Of a DNA stretch of 20,192 nucleotides, positions 4,490-6,526 are shown piece after piece. Position 1 is the first letter of the stretch; the number at the start of each line of letters is the position of its first letter. Under the pieces are notes generated by a model. The model was not told where the DNA came from. It did not search any database and saw only the letters and a list, made by a program, of their open reading frames with translations. This DNA is from a virus. The DNA lies in IMG/VR virus record IMGVR_UViG_3300012030_000021, positions 1-20,192 of that record. The stretch is one strand, 5' to 3'. A program made the position numbers and the translations under genes.

Positions 4490-4565
4490 CAACGAAATAA
4501 AAAGGTTAATTAAACCAAAAGTTTTGTTATAGTATCTGTATCACTTATTATTTAAGGGGCTAAAA
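4486..4565 (+). promoter_or_regulatory. Candidate promoter region ahead of the capsid gene
   Basis: This is the first sizeable intergenic gap in the late block. It is AT-rich and contains a perfect TTGACA (4486-4491, overlapping the portal stop) and, 36 bases further on, TATAGT at 4528-4533, which is a good -10. The TTGACA has no convincing -10 at 16-18 bases, and the TATAGT has only a weak TTAATT (4506-4511) as -35, so neither pair is a clean sigma-70 promoter. The 11-mer TTTGTTATAGT (4523-4533) recurs exactly in the second control region at 19157-19167. The capsid gene then has a strong AAGGGG Shine-Dalgarno. A capsid-boosting promoter is an inference. Confidence 0.35.
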
Positions 4566-6449
4566 ATGAAAACAAAAGACAAAATACAAGTAGGCACGTT
4601 GTTTAGGGCTATGCCTCTTAGTAATATTGACGAAGAAAAAAGAACCGCAGAAATATCCTTTTCAAGTGAATTACCAGTTGAAAGGTTTTTTGGCGATGAA
4701 ATACTTGATCATGCAGTTGATAGCGTGCGCCTTGAGTGGCTGAATTCAGGCCGCGCACCATTACTTGCAGACCATAACAATAGTGTGCATGATCAAATTG
4801 GAGTTATTGAAAAGGCCGAAATCGGCGGCGACAAGAAAGGCCGTGCCGTTGTGCGCTTTGGGAAAGGTGCATTAGCCGAAGAACTTTTTAATAATGTGAA
4901 AGACGGGATTATGTCGGCGGTTTCCGTTGGCTATCGTATTCACAAAATGGTACTTCAATCCTCAGAAGATGCGAAAGATGTTTTTCGTATTACAGACTGG
5001 GAACCACTAGAAGTATCGCTTGTTTCCGTTCCCGCGGATAAAGATGTTGGTTTTGGCAGGGATGCACAAACCGGCGGAAAGTGGGACGTAGACGTTAAAC
5101 GTAATGAAACCCCTTTAAAACCTAATTTGGAGTCTACGGACATGAAAACTAAAAACCAACCATTACGCGCACCAGAGAACGAAGGCGGCGCGGCAGCAGC
5201 AACGGGAATTTCCGAAGCTGATGTAAAAGCAAGATCTGCAATAGCGGTTAAAAATCGTGATGCAGAAGTTGCACGTATTATTGAAATCGGGAAAAAGTTT
5301 AACCAAGGCGACGCGGCTACTGCTGCCATTCGCGATGGTCAAACAAGCGATAGCTTCCTTGATTTTGCTCTTTCTAATTCTGATGAAGCCGAGGCGGTAC
5401 GCTCAACCGGTGAAATCGGACTTACTAAAAAAGAAGGCGAAGGCTTTAGCTTTTTACGTGCAATGAATGCGGTTGATTCTGGTAATTGGACAGGCGCAGA
5501 ATTTGAAAAAGAAGTTTGCGAAGCAACCCAAAAACTAAACAAATCCCGTAAATATGATGGCTTGGCTATTCCTATGGATGTTATGCTTTCCGGTAATGAA
5601 CGTACAGCAACTAAAATGATGCAACGTGATTTATCTGCTGGTGTACTTGATTCTGGTGGTTACTTGGTTGGCACAACACATGCAAGCGGTTCATTTATTG
5701 AATTGTTACGCGCTCAATTGCTACTTTCAAAACTTGGTGTTCGTATTCTTTCGGGCCTTGTTGGTAATGTTGCTATTCCTAAACTTACAGGCGGTGCAAC
5801 TGCTTATTGGGTTAACGAAGGCTCAGACGTTACAGAAAGCACACCGGGTACGGGAAGTGTTACTTTAACACCTAAAACAGTTGCTGGTCATGTTGATGTA
5901 ACACGTAAGTTATTGAAACAATCTAGCCCTGATGTTGAATCGTTGATACGTGAAGATCTTGCACTTTCAATTGCTCTTAAAATCGAAGCTGCTGCATATA
6001 ACGGTACCGGTGCTTCTGGTGAGCCTTTAGGAATCCTTAATACTACTGGTATTGGTTCTGAAACTTTGGGTACTCCTGCAACATTTGGTGATTATGTAAA
6101 CATGGAAACCGAAGTTGCTACCGACAATGCTTTATTTGGATCCCTTAACTACGTTATGACTCATGCCCTAGCCGGTGACGCTAAACAGAACCTTAAAGCT
6201 TCTGCTGTATCTGGTTTTATTTGGGATAAAAACGAAGTTAACGGACACCCTGCATATCGCACTTCGCAAATGCCAACAGGCAAAGCAATCTTTGGAAACT
6301 TCCGCGATGCAATTATTGGTGAGTGGGGTTCTTTGGATCTTACGCTTGATAAATCCAATCAAAACAAATCCGGTGGCATGGAAATTGTTGCGATGCAAGA
6401 TATTGATTTTGCAGTACGTCACGCAGAAAGTTTTTGTGCAGGAGTTTAA
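4566..6449 (+). CDS. Fused prohead protease, scaffold and major capsid protein (HK97 type)
   Basis: This one 627-aa reading frame joins two normally separate head proteins. Residues 1 to about 170 match the HK97-type prohead protease (peptidase U35): PLLADHNN with His70, a MSAVSVGY block whose Ser120 is the likely nucleophile, and EPLEVSLVSVPAD with Glu149. Residues 193 to about 300 are charged and probably helical, like the HK97 delta/scaffold domain. Residues about 300-627 are the HK97-fold shell protein: DSGGYLVGTTH, ELLRAQLLLSKLGVR, GNVAIPKLTGG, AYWVNEGSDVTES, then DLALSIALKIEAAAYNGTG and EPLGILNTTGIG. The protease would cut the scaffold and release the mature shell subunit. A Shine-Dalgarno plus ATG at codon 193 could make the 435-aa capsid precursor separately. 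A hairpin follows the stop. Confidence 0.92.
   Translation: MKTKDKIQVGTLFRAMPLSNIDEEKRTAEISFSSELPVERFFGDEILDHAVDSVRLEWLNSGRAPLLADHNNSVHDQIGVIEKAEIGGDKKGRAVVRFGKGALAEELFNNVKDGIMSAVSVGYRIHKMVLQSSEDAKDVFRITDWEPLEVSLVSVPADKDVGFGRDAQTGGKWDVDVKRNETPLKPNLESTDMKTKNQPLRAPENEGGAAAATGISEADVKARSAIAVKNRDAEVARIIEIGKKFNQGDAATAAIRDGQTSDSFLDFALSNSDEAEAVRSTGEIGLTKKEGEGFSFLRAMNAVDSGNWTGAEFEKEVCEATQKLNKSRKYDGLAIPMDVMLSGNERTATKMMQRDLSAGVLDSGGYLVGTTHASGSFIELLRAQLLLSKLGVRILSGLVGNVAIPKLTGGATAYWVNEGSDVTESTPGTGSVTLTPKTVAGHVDVTRKLLKQSSPDVESLIREDLALSIALKIEAAAYNGTGASGEPLGILNTTGIGSETLGTPATFGDYVNMETEVATDNALFGSLNYVMTHALAGDAKQNLKASAVSGFIWDKNEVNGHPAYRTSQMPTGKAIFGNFRDAIIGEWGSLDLTLDKSNQNKSGGMEIVAMQDIDFAVRHAESFCAGV
5129..5144 (+). 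promoter_or_regulatory. Internal ribosome binding site and in-frame ATG in the protease-capsid fusion
   Basis: GGAG at 5129-5132 lies 9 bases before ATG 5142-5144, which is codon 193 of the fusion and in frame. Initiation here would give a 435-aa protein starting MKTKNQ, strikingly like the MKTKDK start of the full fusion. It would hold only the scaffold and capsid domains. The position is exactly at the expected protease/scaffold junction. Use of the site is inferred, by analogy with lambda Nu3 made from inside gene C. Confidence 0.55.
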
Positions 6450-6468
6450 TAGCTCTTGTTGAAAAACG

Positions 6469-6490
6469 GGGGGCCGCTTATGTGGCCCCC
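6469..6490 (+). terminator. Strong GC hairpin after the capsid gene
   Basis: A 9-bp stem GGGGGCCGC / GTGGCCCCC (one G-U pair) closes the 4-base loop TTAT, 19 bases after the capsid stop. The following TATACTGTTTTAAA is T-containing but not a clean U-tract. It could be a leaky terminator or a 3' mRNA-stabilising structure that raises capsid expression over the downstream genes. Confidence 0.6.
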
Positions 6491-6526
6491 TATACTGTTT
6501 TAAACAAATAAAAAAAAGGTAATTTT

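Follow-up and report, generated by a model that had tools for sequence, protein, structure and literature searches.

The head gene of the phage analysed here very probably carries two nested translation starts, one for a 627-aa fusion of prohead protease, scaffold and major capsid protein and one for a 435-aa scaffold-capsid precursor, and this arrangement would hold across its whole family of fusion genes. The evidence is an in-frame SD and ATG at the protease/scaffold junction, conserved in distant homologues and recurring in two further families of fusions. The gene lies in a stretch of 20,192 nucleotides of viral DNA, called the window throughout.

Protease, scaffold and capsid domains in a single frame

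The features of the gene and its surroundings are listed below, all on the + strand.

4554..4559, +: AAGGGG, SD for the start of the full fusion (sequence; duplex -7.5 kcal/mol)
4566..6449, +: fusion gene for prohead protease, scaffold and major capsid protein, 627 aa (open frame; Pfam; phrog_617 over the full length)
4686..5045, +: Peptidase_S78 protease domain, residues 41-160 (Pfam; ordered in the AlphaFold2 model)
5037..5207, +: linker, residues 158-214, mostly of low confidence or disordered (pLDDT <50 at 158-169 and 184-214; hypervariable in homologues)
5129..5132, +: internal SD, GGAG (sequence; SD conserved in homologues)
5142..5144, +: internal start ATG, codon 193 (sequence; conserved alignment column)
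5142..6449, +: predicted second product, a 435-aa scaffold and capsid precursor (based on conservation of the internal start)
5214..5378, +: predicted scaffold helices, residues 217-271 (AlphaFold2 model; scaffold role assigned by location in the protein)
5655..6443, +: HK97-fold capsid domain, residues 364-626 (Pfam Phage_capsid; model matches)
6468..6491, +: terminator-like hairpin 3' of the fusion gene (z -4.1)

The first-pass annotation had placed protease and capsid protein in one 627-codon frame, and this was borne out by the open frame and by the two Pfam domains within it. The phrog_617 profile matches the window protein over its full length (residues 8-626 on 5-621 of 626, E 4e-139), and the S78 protease and PF05065 capsid domain of that family are found here in a single frame. 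The protein falls outside NF045541, with 170 bits against a cut-off of 525 and a match to residues 21-282 only. In the AlphaFold2 model of the 627-aa protein, residues 4-157 are ordered, pLDDT is below 50 at 184-214 and a helix spans 217-244. The capsid part has the HK97 fold, the model matching the R4C capsid (8gta, E 2e-22) and also HK97 heads. The hairpin directly after the gene is strong, and annotated terminators occupy the same place in Mano and Mica.

Several details reported earlier for the internal site were confirmed. GGAG is followed after 9 bases by the in-frame ATG of codon 193, and the two N-termini read from the sequence look alike, MKTKDK for the fusion and MKTKNQ for the internal product. 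In the structural model, codon 193 lies in the disordered linker at 184-214, between the protease and the first scaffold helix. The gene has 15 in-frame ATGs, of which only those at codons 1 and 193 are preceded by an SD, and the GAG within the internal SD is the rare Glu codon of this gene (6/45). The fusion's own SD is the stronger of the two, at -7.5 vs -5.9 kcal/mol of duplex energy, and the cost of opening the region is 4.8 kcal/mol at the fusion's start vs 7.5 at the internal one. Taken alone, without its relatives, the internal SD-ATG is only suggestive, because a strict SD precedes about 5% of internal ATGs in any case.

Conservation of the internal start

The homologues, found with the full fusion as query, comprised 20 phage relatives, 80 viral contigs and 80 bacterial-genome loci. 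In all 180, as in the window, the fusion is in one frame. Filtering by identity gave sets of 147 (<85%) and 88 (<60%). The junction ATG was defined as the first ATG past the protease GxGR motif, the SD being ignored in the choice. A strict SD was found at 98 of 147 junction ATGs (67%) vs 111 of the 2101 remaining internal ATGs in these genes (5%), an odds ratio of 36; in the <60% set it was found at 63 of 88. In a whole-gene alignment of the latter set, 87 sequences occupy the codon-193 column, with Met in 70 and Met plus strict SD in 50, whereas the runner-up internal column has Met plus SD in 8. The best internal column of a control alignment of portal genes has 8 of 77. An ATG with SD lies no more than 62 codons past the protease in 66 of 88 lineages vs 6.6% of random windows, and the junction ATG with SD is present on every deep branch of the 88-lineage tree.

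When synonymous codons were resampled with the protein kept, 52.9 +/- 4.6 SDs were expected at the 147 junctions, vs 98 observed. This null is high because K, E and R in the linker favour SD-like codons, and part of the signal is therefore residue choice. One codon register accounts for 78 of the 98 junction SDs and the others for 20. The spacing in the window, 13 nt from the first G of GGAG to the ATG, is the commonest in the family (42/98). The second residue is S, T, P, A or G at 45 of 88 junction sites vs 407 of 1254 other Mets; such residues are typical of true N-termini. RNA structure is low at the junction ATG, 7.3 kcal/mol vs 14.3 at other ATGs, but only weakly so against synonymous resampling (mean z -0.44); it is mostly a matter of composition and is given no weight here.

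If the site is used, the GGAG-ATG was expected to be conserved more than its flanking codons. On alignment of the homologues the SD-ATG emerged as the sole conserved feature of a hypervariable linker, down to about 40% identity. By these comparisons its conservation is far beyond chance. About a quarter of the homologues, cyanophages included, have no strict SD near the junction.

The cyanophage fusions L014, L017 and L019 keep the junction ATG and lack the SD there, while some of their other genes have one. About 200 extra N-terminal residues precede the protease in some roseophage and cyanophage fusions (L016, 772-3222; L017, 775-3285; L019, 832-3342; L020, 949-3333), and the extension in CRP-811 gives a weak Hva1_TUDOR match. 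A single-protein scan of the viral contig collection found no relative, so no close relative of the window could be compared, and the homologues behind the conservation share about 32-48% identity. The Arya fusion gene, used as a DNA query against E. coli genomes, gave no match. The nearest neighbour of the window in the tree is a locus (L110) from a MAG labelled Cloacimonadota, and Arcobacter prophages belong to the same 13-row clade.

Other fusion families

The phrog_617 fusions of Arya, VP882, phiHAP-1, FoX1, R4C and RcCronus resemble the window gene in domain order and over their full length, and nearly all phage fusions of this family have the junction ATG. None of the 20 phage records of the family annotates an internal start; each is annotated with one product.

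Two further families, NF045541 (S78 protease plus Phage_capsid_4; RcBaka) and NF045540 (ClpP-like protease plus Phage_capsid_4; F10 and MD8), likewise encode protease, scaffold and capsid in one gene with a single conserved SD-ATG at the boundary. They differ from the window gene in having Phage_capsid_4 as the capsid domain and, in NF045540, a ClpP-like protease. In NF045541 one column holds Met in 32 of 33 and an SD in 29 of 32, vs 12.6 +/- 1.6 SDs expected from synonymous resampling. In NF045540 both Met and SD are found in 12 of 12, vs 7.1 +/- 1.5 SDs expected, an excess that is modest because the set is small and the flanking residues are conserved.

The NF045541 profile matches F10 only from residue 232, and the NF045540 profile matches RcBaka only from 210. 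The part that F10 has in common with RcBaka therefore starts near the internal ATG (codon ~220 in F10), which suggests that proteases have been exchanged at this boundary. The three families are not fully independent, since each has a module in common with another. The earlier proposal that a second start yields scaffold plus capsid without the protease gains support from the conserved SD-ATG and from its recurrence in these two families.

A two-product model for the fusion gene

Ribosomes starting at ATG 4566 would make the 627-aa fusion as the minority product, and those guided by GGAG to ATG 5142 would make the 435-aa precursor without protease as the majority. Both products would co-assemble through their common scaffold and capsid parts, and the minority subunits would carry the protease covalently into the prohead. 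The protease would then cut off scaffold and protease to leave a shell of ~263-residue capsid domains. The window gene thus probably yields mostly plain capsid subunits and only a few that carry the protease. The meeting of protease and capsid genes as TAATG in the split phage phi39:1 speaks for this model as well. With the stronger SD at the fusion's own start, however, SD strength by itself gives no reason to expect more of the capsid-only product. Nor does the SD reveal the product ratio, because annotated starts are no more SD-like than internal starts or other genes (SD at 9/20 annotated fusion starts, 13/20 internal starts and 29/78 other genes).

The shell of R4C, a member of the phrog_617 family, is T=7 and contains 415 capsid proteins (PMC10276861). 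Its modelled capsid chain begins at the residue matching window residue 364, and the mature shell as modelled thus lacks all that precedes this residue. Were each of the 415 subunits a fusion, protease domains of 192 aa each would amount to an estimated ~8.8 MDa inside the prohead. HK97 Prohead I contains 415 capsid and ~60 protease copies, and D3 ~90 proteases (PMC12749128). These copy numbers fit the two-product model.

Alternative explanations

The conserved site might be unused. All subunits would then be made as fusions, with 415 protease domains per prohead, and the SD-ATG would be either a relic or simply a result of how the linker is composed. The single long frame, the strong SD at the first start and the absence of the junction SD in some members agree with this, as does the K/E/R-rich linker, in which SD-like codons are common enough to give 53 of 147 under the null. 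However, 98 SDs were observed against that null of 53 +/- 4.6. They fall in a single conserved column within a variable linker, the pattern recurs in two further fusion families, and a relic would not persist at 40% protein identity. We regard an unused site as unlikely and prefer internal initiation.

It is less likely still that the two parts are separated after translation, by the protease cutting itself off at the junction, with the conserved Met and SD having some other cause. Proteases of this family do remove N-terminal parts, and in R4C the mature chain, as modelled, begins near window residue 364. The junction residues are nevertheless hypervariable except for the Met, which is not the pattern of a cleavage site, and part of the signal is at the nucleotide level; cutting could also coexist with internal initiation. 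To the first-pass annotation the gene looked like two once-separate genes fused when a stop was lost, and a recent event of this kind, in the lineage of the window phage, would leave the old capsid start as a remnant. In phi39:1, where the genes are split, protease and capsid do meet as TAATG at this boundary, and the two N-termini of the window gene share MKTK. All homologues found with the full-length query are, however, already fused, and they come from several bacterial phyla, which places the event far back. The fusion is family-wide, widespread and known (phrog_617, NF045540, NF045541), so the joined arrangement is old. A recent stop loss was rejected and is the least probable of these readings. 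Two starts within an old fusion remain the preferred explanation.

Novelty and general implications

That protease and capsid protein can be fused is already known from NCBIfam, PHROGs, MD8 and Murka. The fusions of MD8 (PMC8508860) and Murka (PMC10892653) have been described, and an internal start is not mentioned in the MD8 section on the fusion gene or in the Murka passages on it. A literature search, with subscription papers outside its reach, gave no report of an internal start in protease-capsid fusions and no answer to how phages with such fusions avoid a protease on every subunit. Effantin et al. (Virology, 2010) reportedly studied the tripartite capsid gene of Gifsy-2, and an internal start may be discussed there. 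The internal start is thus presented as a new finding provisionally.

HK97-type heads require far fewer proteases than capsid subunits, and a conserved internal start would be a simple answer to how fusion phages meet this need. On balance, we favour the wider view that protease-capsid fusion genes are generally two-product genes. Protease modules would be exchanged at the internal start, and heads would be mosaics in which a minority of lattice subunits bear the protease covalently, its dosage being set by two ribosome sites. If true, the annotation of hundreds of head genes would be corrected. A two-start gene also suggests a route to covalent placement of an enzyme in a minority of shell subunits.

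Comparison with lambda and HK97

The likeness to lambda C/Nu3 drawn in the first-pass annotation seems apt. Lambda Nu3 is made from an internal start within C. The C gene has an in-frame SD-ATG inside the protease gene, AGGAGGGCGA-ATG with the SD AGGAGG, whose product has 131 aa. The GenBank entry for nu3 (L355) starts at an ATG without strict SD, giving 201 aa, and the in-frame ATG preceded by AGGAGG lies 210 bases downstream (433, 643). As in C/Nu3, an in-frame SD start inside the protease gene is found in the window and is conserved in its relatives, and in both cases the internal start would yield a protease-free assembly protein. The nested product of lambda is scaffold only, the capsid protein E being encoded by a separate gene, whereas the nested product of the window gene would include the capsid. 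HK97 genes 4 and 5 resemble the window gene in their S78-type protease, in an HK97-fold capsid protein that bears a scaffold domain at its N-terminus and in gene order. In HK97, however, protease and capsid are separate genes, and its protease is therefore not covalently tied to the shell.
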